NCBI GenBank assembly: GCA_009801085.1
Contig: VNWV01000035.1
Location: 1-64,000, forward strand
Origin: Lasiodiplodia sp. COLG20
Lineage: Eukaryota > Ascomycota > Dothideomycetes > Botryosphaeriales > Botryosphaeriaceae
DNA: 64,000 bases
Reading direction: 5' to 3'
This document shows positions 2,078 to 23,071 of the stretch, one piece after another. The position numbers and the translations under genes are program-made. Each line of letters begins with the position of its first letter. Position 1 is the stretch's first letter. The notes below the pieces were generated by a model. The model was not told the origin of the DNA. It did not search any database and saw only the letters and a program-made list of their open reading frames with translations.

Positions 2078-4021
2078 CTACTTCACCAAAACTCTAATCC
2101 CCTTGCTCCCAGGTTTAACTGCAGGGATGAAGGCATCATGATGAAACTCTACATCCTCAATCGTAGTCTCGAAGAGCTGCAAGCGATGACCGTAGCAGTG
2201 GATCAACATTGCCAGCAAGGTAAATACTTCCGCTTGGGCAAGGCTGCAAGATGCTCTTTATTAGAAATTCTGCGTCCCAACAACTTTGCACGGAAAATGA
2301 CTACTCACTTCATTCCCAGACACTGTCTTGATCCTTTGGAGAAGCTCAACAAGTACTGATCTAGGTGTTTATGCCTCTTTCCGCGCTCATCCAACCACCT
2401 CTCTAGCTTGAATGTCCGGCTGTTGGGGAATAATGCTTCGTCATGATGAATCTGGTAACTCGACATCCCGACTGCATAGCCTGGAGGGATCATCCACGTC
2501 TTATCAGCATTCTTGTAGATGATGGGTTCATCGGGGGAGCTGCGCGGAAGACGTGACCCCACTCCATAGCTGAGACGGAGAGCTTCATTGACACAAGCGC
2601 TCAAGTACGGAAGCTGCTCCAGTGTCGACAACGGCGGGGTGGTGGTTGGATCTGTGGCGGGGATGACCGTCTCAAGTTCAGCGCGAAGCTTCTCAATTAC
2701 CTCTGGAGCTGACAGGAGGTAGAACATGGCAACGGAAAGACCTGCAGCAGAGAGTTACTCATTAAGGTCGGTCATGATTAGCGTGAAACACCTTACACCA
2801 GCTGACTGTTTCAATCCCCGCACCAACCAGTGACTGCGCCTCCATGCCCATTCGCTCAACTCCTTTCTCGGAATCCGGTAGATCGCTCGTGAGTAGCTCA
2901 TGGAACACGGTTGTCCGTGACTTTGGGACGTTTAGATTGATGTCTTCCTTGATTTTTCTGATGCGTATACGTGCGTCGACTCGAAACAGACGCCAAAGCT
3001 CACTGACAGGGCTTAAGCGTTCCATTATGGAGCTGTTAATTATTAATCTACGAACTAGCTTTTGGCGTACAAACTCACGAGGGGATGGCATTAAACAAAT
3101 GCATGTAAATCGGAAAATGCCTAAACGAGAGGATGGACTCAGCGCCCATGTGGATTGGATGGTAAAGGCTCAGGGGCATCCGCGGGTCATCCAGGAAATG
3201 GTTTCCGTCGCCGTATAGGTATTCCGTAATCACGTCTGTCGAGAAGCATGAGATAGACGTGACAAGGTCGATCGGTTCGCCGGTTCCAGCCCAGGTTTCG
3301 AGATTTTTGCAGTACTGGATTGCCTTCGCTTTGATGGCTGGCTCCAGCTTAGAAATCATTGCTTTGGAGAAGAACCGGTTCAGAGGAGCCCGACGGGTGC
3401 GATGTAGGTTGTGGTCGGCGGTACCGAAATGGGCCTGTGTCAGCATCAGCCCAATGTGTTTCAATTATCATTGCAGCTTCCGCATACTCCTTCGAATCTG
3501 AGCCGGTGGTCAGCAGCCTTACACAAATACATAATCTACTAGAAGCGTACTGAAATGGTCGCGTGTGCCACGGTGGACTTTCTCGCTTCTTGCCCGAGTT
3601 CGTGTACAGAACTTCGATGAAGCTGGGATCGCTAACATGGAGCTCATCTGGGTTTATTCGCATAATAGGCCCTGAAAAGCGTTAGAGACTATGTCGATGC
3701 TAGAGAAAGTCGCTGATACACGTACCGTATGTCTTGTGAAGGTCGATAATGACCTTGGTGTAGTCACCAGGTCTGTAGATGTCGTAATAGATCTCGTACC
3801 AATATCTAATGTGGGTAAGCGCATTTTCAGCAGTGCCAGCATGCAGAATGTTACGTTAGACCGGCGAGCTTTGGTCCAGGGAATTTAGCCAAAGGGTGAA
3901 ATCTCGACAATCGGTACAGGCCGAGAGATAAACCATACAGTAGTATCGCCACCGCAGTAACGAGAATAGGATGTGCTGCGATGTACCCAACACTGGTTAA
4001 AGGTCCGGTGTGAAACTCCAT
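2078..4021 (-). CDS. Cytochrome P450 monooxygenase (trichodiene-oxygenase-like)
   Basis: Seven exons on the minus strand: 4021-3855, 3805-3726, 3671-3523, 3434-3079, 3032-2797, 2741-2309 and 2243-2078, giving about 528 aa. An N-terminal membrane anchor (residues ~15-40) is followed by the proline hinge FPGPKLAGL. Then come YWYEIYYDIYRPGDYT and MRINPDELHVSDPSFIEVLY, which are typical of the fungal CYP58/trichodiene-oxygenase-like group. The I-helix reads AGIETVSW, the ExxR is in CVNEALRLS, and the haem loop is FSKGSRQCLGM with the cysteine thiolate. The expected role is hydroxylation of a lipophilic secondary metabolite at the ER with a P450 reductase. No terpene cyclase, PKS or NRPS lies nearby, so the substrate is unknown. 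The least certain junction is exon 3/4: a phase-compatible donor at 3522 is used, while a better-looking donor at 3550 would break the frame. Confidence 0.88.
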
Positions 4022-12052: not shown

Positions 12053-13348
12053 TTAGTGCCCACGCCTCGGGCTAGGCTCTGGCGAGGAACTATCATTCCT
12101 GGGTCGATAATCCTTGCCATAGTAGTGGACCTAAGAAAAAAGTCAGTTGCGTACTCTGCCACCCCCGGACAAGACCTGAACTCACCGTGCGAGACCCCGA
12201 GATGCGGACACCATTTTCACTAGTACTGTCGATCCCTCCTGTGACCACCCCTGAAACGCCTGAAATTTCTTTATGGTAGTGGGTGTCGCCCACGACCACA
12301 GAACCGGGCTGGGCGCACACAAATTAGCATAGTTTGTGTAATGAGGGCAAATGAATGTTTTAGAGATGCTTACACCAGCTTGCCTTTCTTCACGTTTGGC
12401 TGGTGGCGTGCTAAATTCTTTGACCCACTGAGCCAGGTGAAGAGCGATTTCCCGCCAGTTTCCATCCGTAACCTCGACCAAGTCGTCATCATGCAGTGGG
12501 GTTGACGGCACGTACGTCTCGTAGAAATACTGGATCTGAAGAAAGTCTTTGCGTATTTCCAGAAAATCCAAAAACTCCTTGCTGATGCCGACGAGCTTCC
12601 AAGACCGCTCCTTCAGGTTGCTGGGCAAGTTCAATCCCTCAAAGGCGGGTAGCTCTCTAGCGGCCTTGACCCACCTGGCAGCTGCTATTCCTTCAAATGG
12701 TGTCTCGAAAAAGGCAAGTCCACGGATGTTGTTGATAATGGTCGGATTGGCATCCTGGTGGGATAACGCATTTGCGCATACGAGACCGCCAAGGTCCCGG
12801 GCGACAAGGATAATCGGACGATCTCCCTTCACCAGGTCAGCGTCGAACTCCCTTTGTATATGTTCACATGTGCATCTTCACTTACTGTTTGAGCGATGGC
12901 CTCAAGACCCTGGAGAAGTTTAGCAGAATGATCGTCAATCGCCGTGCCCGTGTTGCTGGGCTCGGGATAGAAATCATCCAACGTGGCATCATATCTGAAT
13001 TGAAAGACTCGGGCGGTCCTTCCTGTTTGCTTCAGAAGTTCCGGAGGCCAGGCTGCAGTGGAAGATGCATCAGTCCCGTGTAGGTGGCCGCTACCAAAAC
13101 CGTCTACGAAGATAACGCTATCACGTATATTAGTGATCCGAATTATTTTTCGAGCAGATATATCTCAGGTTCGGGCAGCTAACATACTCGACCTTTGCTC
13201 CGGATGGGTCGAAGAGGGGCTCTCCGAGGCCATCGGTCATGGCGGGAACTATGTTCGAGGGGGGCTGGTGGTGAGGGTCTCGAATATGGAATTGATCTCG
13301 GAGCAAGCTCCGCCAGTGGGATCTTCTTTTTTTGGAGTCGTCGGTCAT
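12053..13348 (-). CDS. SesB-like alpha/beta-hydrolase with C-terminal amyloid-like motif
   Basis: Five exons: 13348-13188, 13117-12886, 12847-12374, 12308-12186 and 12130-12053, for 355 aa. The alpha/beta-hydrolase start is VIFVDGFGSGHLHGTDASS...WPPELL. The nucleophile-elbow region is VARDLGGLVCANAL, so Asp stands where lipases have Ser. The sequence VEVTDGNWREIALHLAQWVKEF precedes the linker PPAKREERQAG, a hallmark of fungal SesB-like proteins. The last two exons encode PGSVVVGDTHYHKEI, then GVVTGGIDSTSENGVRISG and VHYYGKDYRPRN, a Gly/Val-rich tail absent from plain hydrolases. SesB-like domains are known N-terminal or stand-alone effectors of fungal NLR cell-death systems. A PNP_UDP gene and an NLR sharing the same motif lie next to it. 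The intron at 12885-12848 is only 38 nt and that junction is the weakest. The overall frame closes. Confidence 0.85.
12186..12308 (-). other. Motif exon: candidate amyloid-signalling motif (hydrolase copy)
   Basis: This 123-nt exon (41 codons) is flanked by phase-0 introns on both sides. It encodes HYHKEI followed by GVVTGGIDSTSENGVRISG. The core GVV-x-G...RISG recurs in the PNP gene (14156-14281) and at the NLR N-terminus (16859-16952). Compared with the PNP copy it has a short insertion before RISG. Class assignment (sigma, PP or other) is not possible by eye. Confidence 0.7.
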
Positions 13349-14075
13349 GGATTATCAGGAAATTTGGGCGATATTCCGGTCGTTTGTGTCGTAAAAGAGC
13401 GAAACAGAAAGAGAAATCGGGACCCAATATGCCAACACAGCCTCAAAAGCATATGTCCGGAACATGGCAGGTTAAAGGCATTATCTAAAGACGTTGTACG
13501 ATTAGGCAACAATGTGCCCCCTTGTCTACCCACAAAAACGGTGCAGCCTCGCAGGTTTTGTCACATTCTGCATAGCCTCGCTTCCGATGCTGGGTGGGGT
13601 TCATCTCGCACCGTGAATCGTGCATCCCTGCAATTGGCCAGTTTCATTCTCCACCATGCCCCGCACTCTATCTCTGCAGCCGCTCCGTCGTCAAATCATG
13701 TAGGGCATCATTAACCGCTGCTCGGGGAATCGTGGGGATCTGGCTCCTGCTACGTTCGCCTTTTTCTTTTCTTGCTTTTTGCTGTACCTAGCCTGTAGAG
13801 CGTAGAGCTCGGGTCTCTGCTTGTCCTGCATCCACCACCGGTGATGTTTGCGAACAAGGTGCTACTTACTCTCCTGTTGCTCGAATCTGTGTGCATAGTC
13901 TTCTAAGTCATCTCTATTTCATGAAATGTGTCTAGTCTCTCGCTACTGCTATTTTTGTCCTTATGTTTTGTCTTCTCTATCGCCTCTTACGTGACAGCGA
14001 ACTGCACTCTCAAGGCTGGGGTGAGAGGGAGAGTCATTCCTAGCGTCAGTCTTGTTTCATGATTAGAATTTCCAA
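13349..14075. other. Intergenic between hydrolase and PNP genes
   Basis: About 730 bases holding the upstream region of the hydrolase and the 3' flank of the PNP gene, both minus strand. Pyrimidine-rich stretches at 13755-13780 and 13920-13985. No further gene seen. Confidence 0.5.
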
Positions 14076-15313
14076 CTATCGCTGCACATAGTTGTTGGTC
14101 TGAAAGAAAAGATCAGCCGGGCTCACTGTCATGGTCCAACAAGTATTGAACTCACCACCTGAGCACCCGAGATACGGCCACCAGAGACGTTTCCCACCAC
14201 AACCCCAGAGACATCATTGATTGGTCCATGGTACGTAGTTCTATCTTGACGTACATATTGCGGTTGAGATGCCTCATCAGTCTGTATACGTCAGCTTAAA
14301 ATAAAATCAGGATTCGTGAAAGGGCCAGCACTGACATTGCTTTTCTCTGCTGGTGACTTTTGTGGAATCGGTGGTGGAGCTTCATTCTGTCCAATCGCCG
14401 CCAAGACGGCTTTGGCGTAAGCAGCAGCCATGGCCGCAGCGTATGGTTGCCAAATATGATTCTTGTGGGCATCCGCGTAGTCACTGACTCCTCGGATAAC
14501 GCCAACCGGTATGCGGTTCATAGTACCGGCTGCCTCCATTTCGAGGCCGATGACATCGTCATTCAATAAAGCTTTCAGCACGTCTCGCTTGCAGGCGCTC
14601 TTGACCAGTTTGTCTCCAGACCCAATACTTCCATACCATACTCGAGTACGTCTGGAATGCGTCCGCGGTTCCCGTGTGACCTCCCTTTCTTCTCCGTCAC
14701 TGTCGTATTCGTATAAGGCATCCTTGTCTTGCCCTGGGTCATTGAAGGTGCCTGTGGCATGTTCCTCGTTTTTGATTCTCTCATAATACGGCAAAAACCG
14801 TTGCGCATCGTTCGGCGCTCTGACTTGGATGCTGCCAATTGCAGATCTGACGACAGGCTCCGTGACGGCCAGAACATGCCCAGCGCGCAGGAGCTCAAAC
14901 CCGTTCTCAGTTTCTTTGCCGAGATCGTAGGGTATGAGGCCAGCGGTGTTCGGGGTGGGAAGAGCGACGAGCACGTCGCCGAGACGGATGTCGCGAATGG
15001 GATCCCCAGAGAGCTTCGGGAGGCCGGCAGCAATCCCCACCAGCAGTCCAAACCAAAGGTTGGGGAAGAAGGTTTTTACCCGATCGGCGAGGGCGGCCGC
15101 GGAGCCTGTGCCGTACTCTTGGCCTGCCGGTAGTGTTGCAATGATAACGTTATGCCCGCACATGTCCCCAGCGTGAAACACGTAGTCATCGCCCCGGCCC
15201 AAACGGAAACTTCCCTCATGCTCGTTGTCCAGCATGTACAGGGCTGCTCGGGTCTCGATCTGGAGCGGGGCAATCCATGCGACGGTGTAGAGCGCGGGGT
15301 CCAAATTTACCAT
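14076..15313 (-). CDS. PNP_UDP nucleoside-phosphorylase-like protein with C-terminal motif
   Basis: Three exons: 15313-14336, 14281-14156 and 14099-14076, for 375 aa. The PNP_UDP fold is clear: YTVAWIAPLQIETRAALYML at the start, HNVIIATLPAGQEYGTGSAA, FGLLVGIAAGLP (nucleoside/phosphate-binding Gly loop), IRLGDVLVALP, VIGLEMEAAG (the ribose-binding ME pair) and IRGVSDYADAHKN (catalytic Asp), ending with an Ala-rich helix. Stopping at the first in-frame stop (14291) would drop the tail. A GT-AG intron 14335-14282 with a CTGAC branch site joins in frame to an exon encoding TYHGPI and GVVVGNVSGGRISG, then TNNYVQR. PNP_UDP domains are common effector domains of fungal NLRs. This stand-alone protein carries the same motif as the neighbouring NLR. 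It may cleave or bind nucleosides when activated (inference). Confidence 0.87.
14156..14281 (-). other. Motif exon: candidate amyloid-signalling motif (PNP copy)
   Basis: A 126-nt exon (42 codons) flanked by phase-0 introns. It encodes TYHGPI followed by GVVVGNVSGGRISG and AQV. It aligns with the hydrolase exon at 12186-12308. The downstream intron falls three residues after RISG in both genes. Confidence 0.7.
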
Positions 15314-16792
15314 CGTAAAGAGGAAAGTTGGGGGCCAGGATAAAATCGAACTTGACAACCGAACTTAGCGCTCAGGTAGTGGCCGTGTCGGGCGAGAACA
15401 AAAGAAATCAAGAAGAGTTGATCCACACCAGAAGGAGATGGGCGAACCGAGACCTTAACCGAGCCAGCGACAGCGGCCAGCGGGCTACTTACTTAAAGAG
15501 TACGGCGCAACTCCGCAAAGACTAGCATGTGACCATGCAGAGCCATGTAAGGTCCTACCAAGAAGAGCTTGTCCTGTTGATAGGACATCAGTACATCAAC
15601 TTGAAGCGCATGTTGTGTGTGTCCCACATTTATTTGCTAATCTTCTTTATGTACTCATTATCGGCATGGTCCAGCTAAAAAGGTAGTGTGATTGTCAGAC
15701 CGACAAACAATCTGGTGTGGGTATTGATGCGGAATCGGGTCTTGGAGTAGATTTGGGGGCAGATTTGGGGGCCGAATTGAATCTGCATGCGGGTCAGGGA
15801 TGACGTGGCTGCGTGCATGCAATAGACCGAGGATCCCTCCCGAAAATGGTGCAGTTGCTGCCTGAATTATGGCAGCACTTCCCGTGCCTAGATGGCGGGA
15901 TGCGTCGTTTTTTCTTGCCAAGCTCAGTCCACGAGTGGGTGACACTTTTCGTTGCTGAGGGGTTAACAATGCTTTTAGGCCAAATTGCAGAGATGACTGT
16001 GTAATGCTTAGCGAAAAGATCCTCAGATTATCTCGGTCCCGAGGCGGCACGGTCGCACGGCGAGATTTCCACAGGAACCACCTATGTCAGCGCTCTTTGG
16101 ATTTTCAATGAGCAATTGAGGAAATTAATCAAAGACAAAACGCTTGGGACAATGCTGTTCCTCACACAATGTGTACTCGGGGAAGTGGATAGGCTAGTAC
16201 CGGCTGCCGGTGCGTCTTCAGCTCGGAGGCCTGTGCGGCTAAGCTGAGATCGTAAGGGTGGAGCGGATGTGATGTGATGAGAATCACATCGCATAGGGGT
16301 CCCACTAGAGTAGCGGGGCCGCCCAGCCGCACGCGTACGTATCATCCAATAATAAAGCTACGTGTCACTCGTATCCGACAAGTCGAAGCCACCCGATCAC
16401 AGCTAAGTTATGAGAAGATTACAATTGATATTAGCATGCTGTCCAGTTCTAGTAGGCTGCTGGACTTCGCAAACACGCAAACAGTGGTCACTAGAGCCAT
16501 AGCGTCACACCCTGCTCGTTCGGTGGTGATGAGCGAAAGGTTAGCCCCTGAGATGAAAGCTAAATCGATACGATCATAAGACACAAAGCTAACCTTCTCC
16601 ACGCGCTGCACCTCAGCTGCATAGCCCTCCCTTGCTTGGACTGATCTTTTTGCTGGAAATTGCGTTGAGGAATATTGGCGGATCGAAATCGATCGGCACG
16701 TAGCCACGGATCTTTCCAATAGAAGACTGAAGTCAGCCTTCGCATCAACAGAAGCACAGGGGCTCCAATCCACGCTCGAACCTTCTATACCC
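15314..16792. other. Divergent spacer between PNP and NLR genes
   Basis: About 1.5 kb upstream of both PNP (minus) and NLR (plus), so likely holding both promoters. A direct repeat of GATTTGGGGGC occurs at about 15750-15772. From 16625 the NLR frame is open without an ATG (through EEYWRIEIDRHVATDLSNRR), so a 5' extension by an unrecognised upstream exon cannot be excluded. No other gene is supported. Confidence 0.5.
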
Positions 16793-19700
16793 ATGGCATC
16801 TTCCTCGGTGGGCGATGTGACCTTGTCGACCTCCGCACAATTGAATGACACCGCGAGCGTGTATATAGGAGAGACGACGTACGAATCGAATATAGACGGA
16901 AACCGAGGGGTGGTATCGGGGCCTGTTCATGGCGGAGCGATATCAATGATTGGTAAGTCTGCATCCTTAGATTGAGGGCCTCCACTAATTTGTTCATAGG
17001 AACCCAAACGATATTGATAGAAACACAAAAGTCTGGAAATGTAGTTCAAGAAACCAGTAGTATGTCCTTCCCTCGGCTCGATAATCGAATTTATCACGGC
17101 TAATTCCTTAATTCCGGCCAAGAAGGCTTTCCAGACTACATGGATTGCTTGAAAAGATTAAGCTTCTCCACATCTGCAAAAGACCAGACCACGAATTTGA
17201 AAATTCTGCACCAGCAGTACATTGATGGCACGTGTGACTGGTTCCTGCAGATGCCCCAGTATGAGCGCTGGTACCGTGAACAAGATCACTCTATGCTCCT
17301 GCTCCTGGGCAATATTGGCATGGGAAAGTCAATGATGTGCCGATTCGTGAAAAAGAACCTGGACAATTTGCCGAAGCAACAGGGACGTCGGAGGACAGTT
17401 GTCTGCTTCTTTTGCGACTACCATCCGGAACGGAGCACAGCAACCGCAGTGGTCGCAGGACTTCTTTCGCAGCTGTTAAAGGCGCACAAAACAAACTTCA
17501 AGGACATCCACACCGAATACCTCCAATGTAAAGATTCGCTTCCTGACGATTTTGACAATCTTTGGGTTATCTTTCAGACCTTTCTGGGGACTCTCAATGG
17601 CGAAGTATACCTCATCATCGACGGAATGGACAAATGTGACGAGTCATCGCGGGACGACCTCTTAGGTCTGCTCAGTGCTGCACTCACTTTCAAAATCACG
17701 GGGCTCGCCATCAAGGTACTCTTGACATCCAGGCCAGAATCGGATTTTTCACGCCTTTCCGGTGGTCTAATTTTGAAAGTCGAGCAGAGGGAAGTCTCCG
17801 CACAACTGAAAATGAGCATCTCAAAGTTCATCCAAGTCCGAGTCCAAAAGCTCCGTACCGCCCCTGAGGTGAAAGAGAATATCCAGAAAGAAATCTGGAG
17901 GAAGGCTGGAGAAACTTACCTGTGGGCCTCGTTCGTCCTTCAGGACCTTCAACAAGCACGCACCTCTCAGGACGTCGACATCAAGTTTGAAAACTTGCCT
18001 CAAGATCTGCACGAAGTGTACGACAGAATGCTGAGAGATATCGACCCTGCTAAGGCCAAGGAGGCCGCTTTTGTCCTTCGCATGGCTGCTGTCGCCCGCC
18101 GACCGTTGACATCAAAAGAGCTCGGCCTACTTTATGTCCTGCGCCCCAAGCGAAAGAGCGCTCGTAGACTAAAGACATTGAAGCAGGAGGAGCGATACCT
18201 GGACCCGAATCTGCCTACCGCCTGCAAGGCCCTCGTCAAGGATGATGACGCCGTGGGATTCGTTCATGAGTCAGTTAAGGAACATCTTCTGGATGATAAA
18301 CTTTCGACTATCCACTGGAGCAGCATTCTTTGTCCGGGTGTGGAAAAGCACAGAAGTTACATGTTCCTCGCTACTGCTATCGGCAAAGCGCTGAGAAATC
18401 TTGGATTGAAGAGAGGAATATCACGGTATCACGTCGTGCCTGATAAGACCCATTTTCTCTTCCTCCAAATCTGCTGGACTTGCTTCGGCATGAAAGAGCT
18501 CCAGCGAGGGGAAAAATTGATCCAGCGCAAGGGCACCGACGAACTAATTCCCAACCCCGATCTGCAGGAATTTCTAGAGTCGCGGCCCGATTTGAGCTAC
18601 ATGATACAGGAATGGCATCACCACGCGTTGTCTGCTGGTCCGGCATTGGGCAGTCGCCGAGCTTGGCTTGCTCGTCACTTGGGCGAGCTGCCCAATTTGC
18701 GCGACGTCTGGCTGCACCGGGTGGTCCTAGCCGGTGACGTGGACACGGCTCGGCTGCTTCTCGATAACCACGCCGATGTCAAGACGCGATGGGGAGACTA
18801 CGGCAGCATTCTTCACGGGCCTTCATCCATGGGCAACGAAGAGATGGTAAAACTGCTGCTCGATCATAAAGCCGATATAGACGCCAAGGGGCGACTGTTC
18901 GACAACGCTTTGGAAGCCGCCTCGAGTAACTCCCATGCAAATATTGTCCGGCTACTGCTTGAACACGGGGCTTCACTTGGTGCACAGGATGGGGACTCCT
19001 GCTCAGCTCTCCAGATAGCCGCGGCAAATGGGTACACGGATATTGTCCGTACTCTGCTCCGCTACGGAGCAGACGTCAATTCCTCTGGGGGAAGACACGC
19101 TCGTCCTTTACATGGAGCCGCGCTTCGTGGGCATTTGGAGCTGGTCAAATTACTTCTAGACCATGGGGCCAATGTCAATGCACAGGGGCAGGGGCATGCC
19201 TACGCTCTGCAGGCGGCTTCGTGTGCCGGCCATTTTGATATCGTGAGGCTGTTAGTGAACAGTGGTGCCAACATCAACGCCAAAGGCGGTGAGCATGGCA
19301 GTGCGCTCCAAGCAGCCATCAAAAGTCACAATAGTGAAATCGAGAAGTGGCTCATTGGGCATGGAGCTGAGTTTAGCCTCGAGGAAGACGAGAGCGATAA
19401 TCCACTATATTCAGCCGCGCTCAGAGGGGATGTCGAAGAAGTTCAGGCCTTACTACCGCGATACGATGTCAATGTTCAAGGCGGTAAGCATGGAAGCCCG
19501 CTGCAAGCAGCAGCTTACGAGGGACATGAGAACGTAGTTCAGCTTCTTATCGACAGCAGAGCTGATGTCAACGCTCAGGGAGGCATTTATGGAAATGCTT
19601 TACATGCAGCGTCCGTCAATGGAAGTGTTGAGGCTATGCGAGTGCTGCTCAGGCATGGCGTTAGCGCAAATATCCGCGGGGAAGCGCACTCAACCGCTCT

Positions 19701-20346
19701 GCAGGCCGCCATCTCATCCAAGTCTTCCAACAAGAAGGAGGCTGTCCGCCTGCTGTTGGAAAATGGCGCCCTAACCAACATTCAGGGCATTTCTTTCGGT
19801 ACCCCGTTACAGGTGGCCGCCTTGAGAGGGAACATTGATATAGCTGAGCTGCTGATCGACAATGGCGCCAACGTCAACGCCAAAGGCGGCAGATACGGCT
19901 TCGCACTCCAGGCTGCCGTCCTCTGTGGTAGAAAAGGCATGGTTCAGCTTCTACTTGACTACGGCGCTAACGTTAATGCGAAAGGCGGCGAGTTTGATTC
20001 CGCGCTACAAGCGGCCGCCTACCTGGGTGATGAAGAGATCGTTGAGTACCTGCTTACCCGCGGCGCTGACATTAACGCCAAAGGCGGGAGGTATGGCTTT
20101 GCATTGCAAGCGGCTGCCCATCAAGGTGAGGAAGAGGTCGTCAAGCTCCTGCTCGACCGAGGCGCCAATGTCAATGCGGAATGTGGCCCGTACGGAACAG
20201 CGTTAAAAGCGGCACGCCACAGCGAACACGAGACAGTCGTCCAGCTGCTACAGCAGTGGGACAGCCGACTCAATAGGACGGGTAGTTGGGGGATACATAG
20301 GATGGGTAGTTGGGGGATACAGGTCGGCAGGGGTGGGCGTGGATAA
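16793..20346 (+). CDS. NLR: N-terminal motif, NACHT NTPase, 16 ankyrin repeats
   Basis: Three exons: 16793-16952, 17000-17059 and 17123-20346, for 1147 aa. Residues ~23-54 hold the short motif (VYIGETTYES, then GVVSGPVHGGAISMIG). No HeLo, HET, SesB or PNP effector domain precedes the NTPase. The NACHT region has Walker A LLLLGNIGMGKSM, Walker B VYLIIDGMDKCDE and sensor KVLLTSRPESDF, followed by the winged-helix-like FVHESVKEHLL. The C-terminal half (from ~18688) is about 16 ankyrin repeats of ~33 aa, many with the consensus GANVNAKGG-x-YG-x-ALQAA. Such repeats form the ligand sensor in fungal NLRs. The tail ends with two copies of a GSWGI unit. Inferred role: a cytosolic sensor that oligomerises on detecting a cue and exposes its N-terminal motif to template the two effectors encoded next door. 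Confidence 0.9.
16859..16952 (+). other. Candidate amyloid-signalling motif (NLR copy)
   Basis: Residues 23-54 of the NLR: VYIGETTYES then GVVSGPVHGGAISMIG. It matches the motif exons of the neighbouring hydrolase and PNP. The first intron (from 16953) interrupts it just after the I-S block, close to where introns fall in the two effector genes. Confidence 0.7.
18688..20265 (+). repeat. Ankyrin repeat array in the NLR
   Basis: About 16 tandem ~99-nt units. Later units are nearly identical in parts: the string AKGGRYGFALQAA appears twice, at about 19880 and 20080. High similarity between units suggests recent duplication or conversion, as in other fungal NLR sensor arrays. Confidence 0.85.
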
Positions 20347-20719: not shown

Positions 20720-21786
20720 TCAGAAATTCCCCGACAGCCAATCATACAGAGCCTTCCCCACCACATCCGGCTTCTCCATCGTGCACCAATGCGTAGAGTC
20801 AATGATCTTGACCGTCAAGTCCGGCAGCAGCCCCGCCTTCTTCGGCCCCTCAATCAACTGCCACAAACACGCATCATCGCGCTCGCACCCCAAAAAGAAC
20901 GACGGCACCTGCACCACGATGCGCTCCCTTGGCAACTCCTTCTCAACCTCATACTGATAATTCCCGGCCATAGCCAAATACGGCCCCAACGCCCCCGCCA
21001 TCCCTCCCCCCTCCCTCACCGCGCTCAACCACTCCTCCCTCCACCCCTTCCCGGGCCGCGCATACTCAAGCACCTCCGCCTCCCGCCCCTCCTCCACAAA
21101 CCTCCTCAGCTCCCCCCTCGTACAAAACTTCCCCCTAACCCAATGCTCGCCCGCGCCATGGCACGCATCCCAAAAACTCTCGAGATGCCCATCCAGCACC
21201 GCCGCCGCGTCCTCGGCCGTGAACAGCTCCCAGTACGCCAACCGCGGCCAGCCGGTGGCTTCCTCGGTCGCGGAGTTGGCGGCACCCAGGTCGAACGGCG
21301 CGTCCGGCGGCATGTACGGCGCCGACAGCATGCCCAGGCCGACGACGAGCTCGGGGTGCCAGAGGTAGAGGCGTTGCGCGTAGTACGAGCCCCAGTCGTG
21401 CCCGATGGCGATGACGTTGCGCGTGATGCCTTCCGAGGCGAGCAGCGCGGCGTAGTCGGCGGCGCAGGCTTTGGAGGTGTAGTCAGACGCGGTCGTGGGG
21501 CGGGAGGATGAGCCGTAGCCGAGACTGTGGGGGGTGGGGTTAGTTTGTGTGGTTGGATGGGGGGCTGGAGGGGGGGTAGGACGGACAGGTCGGGGAGGAT
21601 GATGCGGAAGCCCAATGGCTCGAGGTGGGGGAGGACGTGTTTCCACAGGTGCGCGTTGTCGGGGAAGCCGTGGACGAGGAAGATGGTGGGCTTGGAGGCG
21701 TCGATTGGTTTGGTGGGGGCGGAGTCGTAGTAGGTATACGTCAGGGAGCGGGAGGAAGTGAAGGTTTTTTTCGTGTAGCTTTCCAT
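20720..21786 (-). CDS. Alpha/beta-hydrolase, soluble epoxide-hydrolase-like
   Basis: Two exons: 21786-21587 and 21524-20720, for 334 aa. Epoxide-hydrolase hallmarks: the oxyanion motif HGFPDNAHLW, LPDLLGYG restored across the intron, the nucleophile elbow IAIGHDWGSYYAQRL (catalytic Asp) and a C-terminal DSTHWCTMEKPDVV with the catalytic His. A helical cap follows the elbow. Expected reaction: hydrolysis of epoxides to diols, or a related hydrolysis (the fold also serves haloalkane dehalogenases). The intron donor reads GTCCGT, weaker than average, but splicing restores the family motif exactly. The gene is GC-rich with strongly biased codons, which creates long spurious frames on the opposite strand. 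Confidence 0.88.
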
Positions 21787-23071
21787 TGTTGCGGTGTTGT
21801 CAGTGGTGTGATTTTTGTGTTGATGTGGAAGCTCTTCACGGCGGGGTAAGTAGTGCTATATACTCGGCGCTTCGGCCGTACTCCGCAGGTAATCCGGCTG
21901 TTGGTGGACAAGGAATAGGCTCCGCCACATGTTCGAAACAGTCTGACAGGGTTTGTACTACACCGCTTGAATTCCGCTTGATATCCGTATGAACTCCGCT
22001 TGAAGAGGCTCTATTACCTGAGGCAGTTTAGCGTCTGTGTAAAAAGTAAGACCTAAACTGATTTAGGGAAAAACAGCGAAACCAGGCGGCCATTTGCGAA
22101 ATGCCATTGATACATCATTCAAGACCAATGAGCCCAAGTTCAATTTTGGGGCAATTACTAAACAGCACTTCTCGGCCCAAACAGCACCTCTTGCATCGTA
22201 CGACGATTTTATGGTCTTATTGGCCAAGGCTACGCCTGAGTGAGAAGAGGTGCTGCTCGGTAATTTGACTTGTGGTGCTTGACGAGGACAAACGCGACAT
22301 GGTTGGTCTTTGTATAGGCATCGCATACAAAATCGGCCACGACTTCTGAGCGCACGGTGTAAGACGTGCTGTTTAGGGCGAGGAGTATTGTTTGGTTCGT
22401 ATGGTTGCCTCAGAGGTGCTGTTTGGTTTACCCCTTCAATTTTTGAGTGGCGTGTTGGCATATATAATTGTGTCGTGGTGATGGTGGTGTTATCGGCGAC
22501 TAAAGCTCTGTCCCAGTCCGTTCGGCGACCTCGCTTTCATTCAATCTCCCCACCAACTCCGTCCTGTTAGTCTGGGAGACCTTCACTGCCGTGCGGCGTA
22601 TGTTGCTAATAGTAATCCTCCTGTTCTATCTCCTTTGCACTGATCTCGTTCTCCACTCTTATCCTCGTCATTCTTACCGGCGCCGCCTAAGCTGCCATCG
22701 TTTTTCTTACCAATTCTGCTATCGGTGTTTGAGCTTATTGTAAAATTTTCACAAAGCCTTTGGAAATATCATGTTTACTGGTGGTATTCGTGGGGCCATG
22801 TCTTGGCAGGTGCTTTTTTTTTTTTTTCGAGTGAGTTATCGCCGTTCAAGACCTGACAGGAGGTCGCCGATATGGTCGCCGAGGCTCGGCTGGAACGGAG
22901 TACGAATCAATCAATTAATCAGACATGGTCGCCGATGGTGGACAAACTTGCGGACTAGAAGTTTTATATAGTAAGTCAGCAAAATCAAACTTTATCAATT
23001 TAGAATTTCCAATAGTAAGGTGCAGCTTTCGAAGTCAGAGTAAAAGACTATTTCGCCATTAACTCAACACA
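21787..23071. other. Intergenic, no gene recognised
   Basis: About 1.3 kb. Contains several scattered copies, in both orientations, of a short AGGTGCTGTT-like word (near 22160, 22180, 22246, 22365 and 22415) and a T16 run at ~22811. A 132-codon minus frame at 22063-22461 has no domain and I do not call it. May be a decayed repeat. Confidence 0.4.

Follow-up and report, generated by a model that had tools for sequence, protein, structure and literature searches.

How fungal effectors come to stand under a given NLR is an open question, and a cluster of three genes in Lasiodiplodia sp. COLG20 bears on it. The cluster lies in a 64,000-nucleotide stretch, referred to here as the window, which forms the start of contig C29 (VNWV01000035.1) in an assembly of 43.5 Mb and 88 contigs. 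The genes for a SesB-like alpha/beta-hydrolase (12053..13348, minus strand) and for an effector of the PNP_UDP / methylthioadenosine-S-adenosylhomocysteine (MTA-SAH)-nucleosidase fold (14076..15313, minus strand; hereafter, the PNP) are arranged in tandem, and a gene for a NACHT-ankyrin NLR (16793..20346, plus strand) is divergent from the PNP gene. After splicing, all three encode one motif, located at the C-terminus of both effectors and at the N-terminus (residues 28-54) of the NLR. Adjacent hydrolase, PNP and NLR genes, together with the same motif at the effector C-termini above chance, are what is looked for in NLR/effector pairs of the trans amyloid-signalling type, and the cluster is quite likely a fungal NLR signalosome of this kind. 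It is real and well formed, and probably functional. The initial annotation had proposed one NLR with two effectors acting in trans, and the adjacency, the shared motif and its placement support that proposal.

A shared motif in three adjacent genes

The motif reads THYHKEISGVSGVVTGGIDSTSENGVRISGS in the hydrolase (12192-12284, minus strand; residues 291-321), TTYHGPINDVSGVVVGNVSGGRISGA in the PNP (14162-14239, minus strand; residues 341-366), where it is conserved in the L. theobromae relative P0001, and TTYESNIDGNRGVVSGPVHGGAISMIG in the NLR (16874..17001, plus strand), where intron 1 splits its last codon. The strings by which the motif had been described earlier do occur at this locus. Five motif copies, two from L. 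theobromae and three from the cluster, were built into a profile, and with it we searched 5737 six-frame open reading frames (ORFs) of the window and of the fetched genome loci; 10 loci overlapping the window were excluded from this set, and the mutually overlapping L013, L017 and L036 were retained. Only the hydrolase, the PNP and the NLR, all three of them in the training set, passed the inclusion threshold. When one gene at a time was left out of the profile, the held-out gene was the best untrained match every time. The hydrolase was recovered at an E-value of 0.0024 (next match, 0.17), the PNP at 1.9e-5 (next, a SesB-like hydrolase on contig C56 that is described below, 0.0006) and the NLR at 0.0021 (next, the same C56 hydrolase, 0.0027).

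Smith-Waterman comparison gave a z-score of 8.1 for the hydrolase and PNP motifs, with 0 of 5000 shuffles as good, 5.9 for the hydrolase and the NLR (1 of 5000) and 5.7 for the PNP and the NLR (2 of 5000). The likeness is beyond chance in all three genes: leave-one-gene-out profiles and shuffles bear out the earlier statement that the three neighbours share a motif, the alignments surpass shuffled Gly-rich sequence with at most 2 of 5000 shuffles as good, and the spliced gene models confirm the C-terminal position in both effectors and the N-terminal position in the NLR. The signature Y-x3-[IF]-x3/4-G-V-V-x-G-x-[VI] is present in 6/6 copies and in 0/7 of the other motifs compared; the former count holds by construction, because the signature was written from those copies. 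A candidate fourth motif gene in the window (2570-2719, E 0.045) was rejected; it overlaps a frame on the opposite strand that, judged by eye, is P450-like.

Gene models

The three genes were spliced by hand. The hydrolase gene encodes 348 aa in five exons on the minus strand (13188-13348, 12886-13117, 12374-12826, 12186-12308 and 12053-12130). The PNP gene, on the same strand, encodes 375 aa in three exons (14336-15313, 14156-14281 and 14076-14099). The NLR gene encodes 1147 aa in three exons on the plus strand (16793-16952, 17000-17059 and 17123-20346). All eight introns run from GT to AG and measure 47-70 nt, and by eye a CTRAY branch-like site is found near the acceptor in each. Both PNP introns are matched by P0001, and hydrolase introns 2-4 by the L. 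theobromae protein P0121. These two relatives splice alike through the motif to the protein end; the P0121 model is without approximately residues 54-100 of the hydrolase. The search with the NLR N-terminus gave no relative, so both NLR introns are placed from splice signals and reading frame. Downstream of the NLR, the frame at 20720-21799 (minus strand) appears by eye to be epoxide hydrolase-like, with a GHDWGS elbow, and looks unrelated to the cluster.

Domains of the effectors and the receptor

Both effectors had been described as having enzyme folds, and the folds stand, although the SesB-like member is probably no working serine hydrolase, with Asp in place of Ser. Its Abhydrolase_1 match in Pfam (E 0.11) is below the cut-off. 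The nucleophile elbow, ARDLGG (12785..12802, minus strand; residues 140-145), has the form A[RC]DLGG with Asp in 3/3 relatives (ACDLGG in Monosporascus), in contrast to the Ser of the paralogs: HSLGG was found in 7/9 SesB-like paralog loci, and no elbow match was found at L016 and L018. Towards the C-terminal end of the domain, the three hydrolase relatives have no His in common. The protein thus has neither the nucleophile Ser in HSLGG nor the catalytic His of SesB serine hydrolases, and is probably a pseudo-hydrolase whose serine-hydrolase chemistry, judged from these residues, has been lost. There is a weak NCBIfam dehalogenase match (E 0.09); an Asp nucleophile as in dehalogenases is less likely, because no histidine is conserved. 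A profile search of solved structures with the hydrolase returned an esterase at E 0.69.

The PNP, in turn, has both the PNP_UDP/MTA-SAH-nucleosidase fold and its likely active-site residues. Its Pfam match to PF01048 (E 0.0029) is below the curated cut-off, and P0001 matches NCBIfam NF004079 (MTA/SAH-nucleosidase) at E 5.8e-10, yet its 39 bits fall short of the cut-off of 169. The AlphaFold2 model of exon 1, built with 44 sequences, had pLDDT 71.2 and pTM 0.78. The best Foldseek matches were the H. pylori futalosine hydrolase/MTA-SAH nucleosidase and other nucleosidases of this family, with E-values down to 1.1e-10; the superposition was loose, with TM-scores of 0.44-0.50 on the query and root-mean-square deviations of 8-11 A for the ten best. 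E20 (44/44), E260 (43/44) and D278 (43/44), the likely catalytic residues by comparison with the E. coli enzyme, are conserved in alignment A3, the query included. Among 775 homologs found, tails were counted in the 120 matches listed. By pattern scan, the C-terminus of at least 21 of these 120 (P0004, P0026 and others) resembles FNGPISGRNVVAGTSxSGGTxNxNFS, and at least 2 of the 120 carry a PUASM tail. Such unlike tails on closely related PNP domains suggest motif swapping.

In the NLR, NPHP3_N and ankyrin families scored above the Pfam cut-off, and NACHT fell just below it (25.4 vs 26.7 bits). A Walker A sequence, GNIGMGKS, occupies residues 136-143. Pfam scans found no N-terminal effector domain; the short motif stands there instead.

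The motif exon of the two effectors

In both effectors the motif is an exon of its own, of 41 codons in the hydrolase (12186..12308, minus strand) and 42 codons in the PNP (14156..14281, minus strand), with phase 0 at both ends. The hydrolase intron that follows it (12131..12185, 55 nt) resembles PNP intron 2 (14100..14155, 56 nt), and with donor and acceptor kept fixed in the shuffles, these two introns are the most alike of 28 pairs (z 3.9, 0/1000 shuffles). Across the exon-intron border, BLASTN aligned hydrolase and PNP with 34/45 identities (E 5e-5), and the wider DNA region scored 408 against 262 +/- 23 (maximum 369) in 500 shuffles. The likeness of the exon DNA also exceeds that expected from synonymous resampling of the PNP exon (p 0.021). 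At the start of the last exon, PNP VTNNY is similar to TTNNY of the L. theobromae hydrolase, and TVHYY of the window hydrolase is less alike. Given this DNA likeness of the motif exon and the intron after it, a single exon-intron module is the most likely origin of both effector tails, and the motif has probably moved as a module of this kind. A phase-0/0 motif exon could be skipped in frame, and its skipping leaves both effector reading frames open.

Copies in relatives and elsewhere in the genome

P0001 is 93% identical to the PNP and keeps the motif. P0121, named 'SesB-related regulatory protein', is 65% identical to the hydrolase over 72% of the query and keeps it as well. As the contigs of P0001 and P0121 are equal in size (1079237), they are probably one contig. 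The rates within one cluster are very unequal relative to L. theobromae, at 93% identity for the PNP and 65% for the adjoining hydrolase. A further hydrolase relative, P0122 of Monosporascus, is 42% identical over 71% of the query.

A fourth copy in the genome, NISYDDGFQNHGVVAGHIYGTKENAIHVVG, follows the hydrolase's closest paralog (C56:2269571-2270160); the frame that encodes it requires an intron directly upstream. This segment is similar to the motifs of the hydrolase (z 5.6) and the NLR (z 6.6). The C56 paralog is SesB-like with canonical Ser and His (THSLGG, HHSDMCKF); it is unlinked to the cluster and its motif copy is divergent. NACHT- and ankyrin-like frames are seen by eye nearby, at C56:2264834-2267387. 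A motif-bearing NLR beside the C56 hydrolase was sought and rejected: the search turned up no motif, and stop codons abound in the frames upstream.

Several observations weigh against a receptor and two effectors wired by one mobile motif. Among the 28 intron pairs, three others also reached p<0.05 (0.019 to 0.049). The NLR copy is without a DNA-level link to the effector copies; its DNA is not alike to theirs, with p 0.99 and 0.89 on synonymous resampling. The C56 segment is not significantly similar to the PNP motif (z 1.8, p 0.07). The Monosporascus model P0122 is without the motif; it looks like an exon-skipped form, and an exon missed by annotation would explain it equally well. Among 145 protein-database candidates for the NLR N-terminus, none matched at E<=0.001, so the NLR motif copy is seen in one genome only. 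Whole-genome peptide searches gave no further motif-bearing NLR; most of them also missed the C56 copy, which makes these searches insensitive.

Relation to known motif families and alternative explanations

Comparisons with the literature draw on passages of open-access papers. Fungal motif families described there include HRAM, PP, sigma and PUASM 1-2 (PMC3321046, PMC9815663, PMC5485727, PMC12261475, PMC4518210). The motif copies were scored against the published consensus patterns as coded in this analysis: FxGx(x)NxGLQLxGxNxGxL for PP (PMC3321046), FxGxGxQxxGxGxF for PUASM and the submotifs GxGxQFN / GGTQN for sigma. As a PP control we used C23:495794-497253 (L040, L041), where a PP-bearing HeLo protein (PF14479, PF17046) adjoins frames that read by eye as an NLR; the PP-like N-terminus on the NLR side is below the Pfam cut-off (17.7 vs 23.2 bits). 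This HeLo-PP protein beside an NLR makes it probable that the trans amyloid-signalling mode is present in the genome. The five cluster and L. theobromae copies of the motif have 4-5/10 PP positions and the C56 copy 7/10, against 10 and 9 for the two C23 controls, and PF17046 recognised the control with no match on the cluster proteins. For sigma, 1-2/5 and 3-4/8 positions were present; PF17106 matched neither the cluster proteins nor anything in the genome, a search in which no sigma positive control was at hand. For PUASM, 6 copies had 3/7 positions and the controls P0088 and P0102 had 7/7. The HRAM 21-residue pattern scored 4-6/9 in the motif copies and in the same range in 7 other motifs, so the HET-s pattern as coded does not discriminate. 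PF11558 gave no match on the cluster proteins, and no positive control matched it in the genome search either; this profile covers 38/155 double-HRAM proteins (PMC4518210). Among solved structures, the motif profile had a single match, at E 0.92. Comparison with known amyloid motifs, which had been suggested as a check, thus places the motif outside the PP, sigma and PUASM consensus and leaves HRAM without a distinguishing score. A new motif family is not proven; the published consensus patterns set the motif apart from PP, sigma and PUASM.

It is unlikely, in our view, that the motif is a strongly diverged PP/RHIM-type element with N-x-G-V-V-x-G for N-x-G-L-Q-L-x-G, a reading under which the mechanism would be unchanged. 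The NLR sequence GNRGVVSG aligns with GNRGFQLG of the C23 PP motif and the C56 copy has 7 of the 10 PP positions, yet the cluster and L. theobromae copies stay at 4-5 where the C23 controls reach 10 and 9, V stands in place of the central PP Q, PF17046 is silent while it matches its control, and shuffles against the effector-side C23 PP motif gave p 0.03-0.78 for the five copies. A comparably small probability attaches to the motif having been catalogued already, either as PUASM-2/PF01048_015 or in an HRAM3-like form, for example NLR12. PF01048_015 is known from four pairs only (PMC9815663), and the PNP motif is weakly like the common tail of its homologs (FNGPISGRNVVAG..; mean z 2.2, 3/20 comparisons at p<=0.01). 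The NLR motif had a mean z of 1.4 (1/20 at p<=0.01), and the C56 copy also 1/20. Of 500 shuffles against the tail profile, which was made from 20 of the 21 sequences with P0010 excluded, those not beaten numbered 4 for PNPLt, 41 for the PNP, 39 for C56 and 53 for the NLR. Against this, a search with the common-tail profile brings up no match at E<=10 to any of the three motifs, the hydrolase and HYDLt had mean z of 0.1 and 0.0 with 159 and 409 of 500 shuffles as good, and PUASM-1 and PF01048_015 are described in the passages as uniquely PNP_UDP-associated (PMC9815663), whereas the present motif is also on a SesB-like protein. Identity with the common PNP tail is rejected on the tail profile, pairwise z-scores and shuffles, and the weak likeness of the PNP motif remains.

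Somewhat less probable again is that no amyloid signalling is involved and that the segment is a homotypic interaction peptide common to the proteins, or a tail exon that was duplicated, for example a complex-assembly tag or gene-duplication relic. Descent from one copy, with motif exon and next intron alike in DNA, explains the likeness between the effectors alone; it leaves unexplained the NLR copy, whose likeness is at the protein and not the DNA level, and its N-terminal position, and L. theobromae keeps the motif despite only 65% identity in the whole hydrolase. Chance likeness of Gly-rich segments is highly improbable: the segments are short and rich in Gly/Val, but composition-preserving shuffles and leave-one-gene-out profiles both speak against it.

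Comparison with published systems and proposed mechanism

A C-terminal motif on the effectors and an N-terminal one on the NLR is the geometry of published systems (PMC5485727, PMC3321046), and 'pairs (or triplets)' is wording used in the field (PMC12261475). The pairing of a PNP effector in trans with a hydrolase effector had been called uncommon, which was an overstatement. Two effectors under one NLR are in print for PNT1 of the HELLP locus and for HET-eN with SESA and SESB (PMC5485727); because HELLP/SBP/PNT1 and HET-eN/SESA/SESB have the same layout, one NLR with two effectors was already known. The literature also has SesB and PNP each as a trans effector. What was not found in the passages is PNP_UDP and SesB on one motif, and the open-access literature searched likewise yielded neither a symmetric motif cassette exon nor a pseudo-SesB effector. 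Exon shuffling and alternative splicing are mentioned in those passages for receptor sensing domains and not for amyloid motifs.

SBP of HELLP/SBP/PNT1 is reportedly SesB-like. In that PP system of Chaetomium globosum, one NLR with an N-terminal motif is considered to govern two effectors that carry this motif as well (PMC5485727), and a sesB homolog has also been seen in PP clusters (PMC3321046); it differs in a partner effector that is HeLo-type (HeLo/Goodbye in PMC3321046) and not PNP, and in the PP consensus that is lacking here. SESA/SESB/HET-eN of Nectria haematococca, a sigma system, shares a NACHT-ankyrin NLR and two effectors, one of them an alpha/beta hydrolase (PMC5485727, PMC3321046), whereas the cluster motif has no sigma submotifs or PF17106 match and the second effector there is SESA. 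PNP_UDP is a frequent effector of fungal NLRs (PMC10197012). UDP-phosphorylase/STAND pairs with a common sigma-type extension are described (PMC3321046), and such pairs in Aspergillus oryzae and others (NLR12, PUASM) have a PNP_UDP protein in trans whose C-terminal motif matches the adjacent NLR (PMC9815663, PMC3321046); the cluster motif is unlike sigma and PUASM, and the passages describe no SesB partner for these pairs. As in NWD2/HET-S (HRAM), NLR and effector are adjacent and divergently transcribed and the NLR has a single motif copy (PMC3321046); unlike it, the cluster has no HeLo effector, a single motif copy per effector and no PF11558 match. Bacterial PNP effectors act in immunity by cleaving ATP, which is the immune output of Detocs (PMC11249213); receptor and activation are different there, and ATP cleavage by the cluster PNP is proposed by analogy.

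From these parallels we infer amyloid formation, templating, ATP cleavage and cell death in the cluster. Ligand binding to the ankyrin repeats would be expected to oligomerise the NACHT protein and so cluster its N-terminal motifs, which would nucleate a beta-arch amyloid. This fold would template the matching C-terminal tails of both adjacent effectors. The PNP_UDP nucleosidase, once clustered, would use up purine nucleotides, ATP if the bacterial PNP effectors are a guide, and the SesB-like protein may serve as a co-assembling scaffold or modulator.

Other NLR/effector arrangements in the genome

A second adjacent PNP/NLR pair was seen at C1:3620049-3623137 (L004, L025). Its PNP ends in NNFFGMSNQSGGHSISGSSFESGGGTINIG, and MAGQSNNFDGTSVSGGFNVQGNQFNGPVNIGG, which is alike to it (z 5.0, 1/3000 shuffles), precedes the adjoining NACHT-type frame. 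The pair is possibly sigma-like, its NLR-side segment having 4/5 submotif A positions. Around 90 kb away on the contig of the cluster, C29:109527-113879 (L039) has successive SesB-, NACHT- and ankyrin-like frames on one strand, which by eye resemble a SesB-NLR gene fused in cis. At C56:2232865-2235159 (L038), a PNP frame and a NACHT-like frame directly after it share a strand, an arrangement that resembles a PNP-NLR fused in cis.

Implications for effector wiring

It is possible, and we put it forward tentatively, that the motif represents a new amyloid-motif family spreading as a symmetric (phase 0/0) cassette exon, that copying of exon and intron between the SesB-like and PNP genes put a second effector under one NLR, that in-frame skipping would give motif-less, unresponsive isoforms, and that the pseudo-hydrolase tunes assembly. 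The pairing of a nucleosidase with a probably dead hydrolase raises the question of a pseudoenzyme's role in an amyloid signalosome. The wiring element appears here as a separable exon plus intron common to two unrelated effector genes, which would offer a concrete route for rewiring effectors and a possible splice switch.

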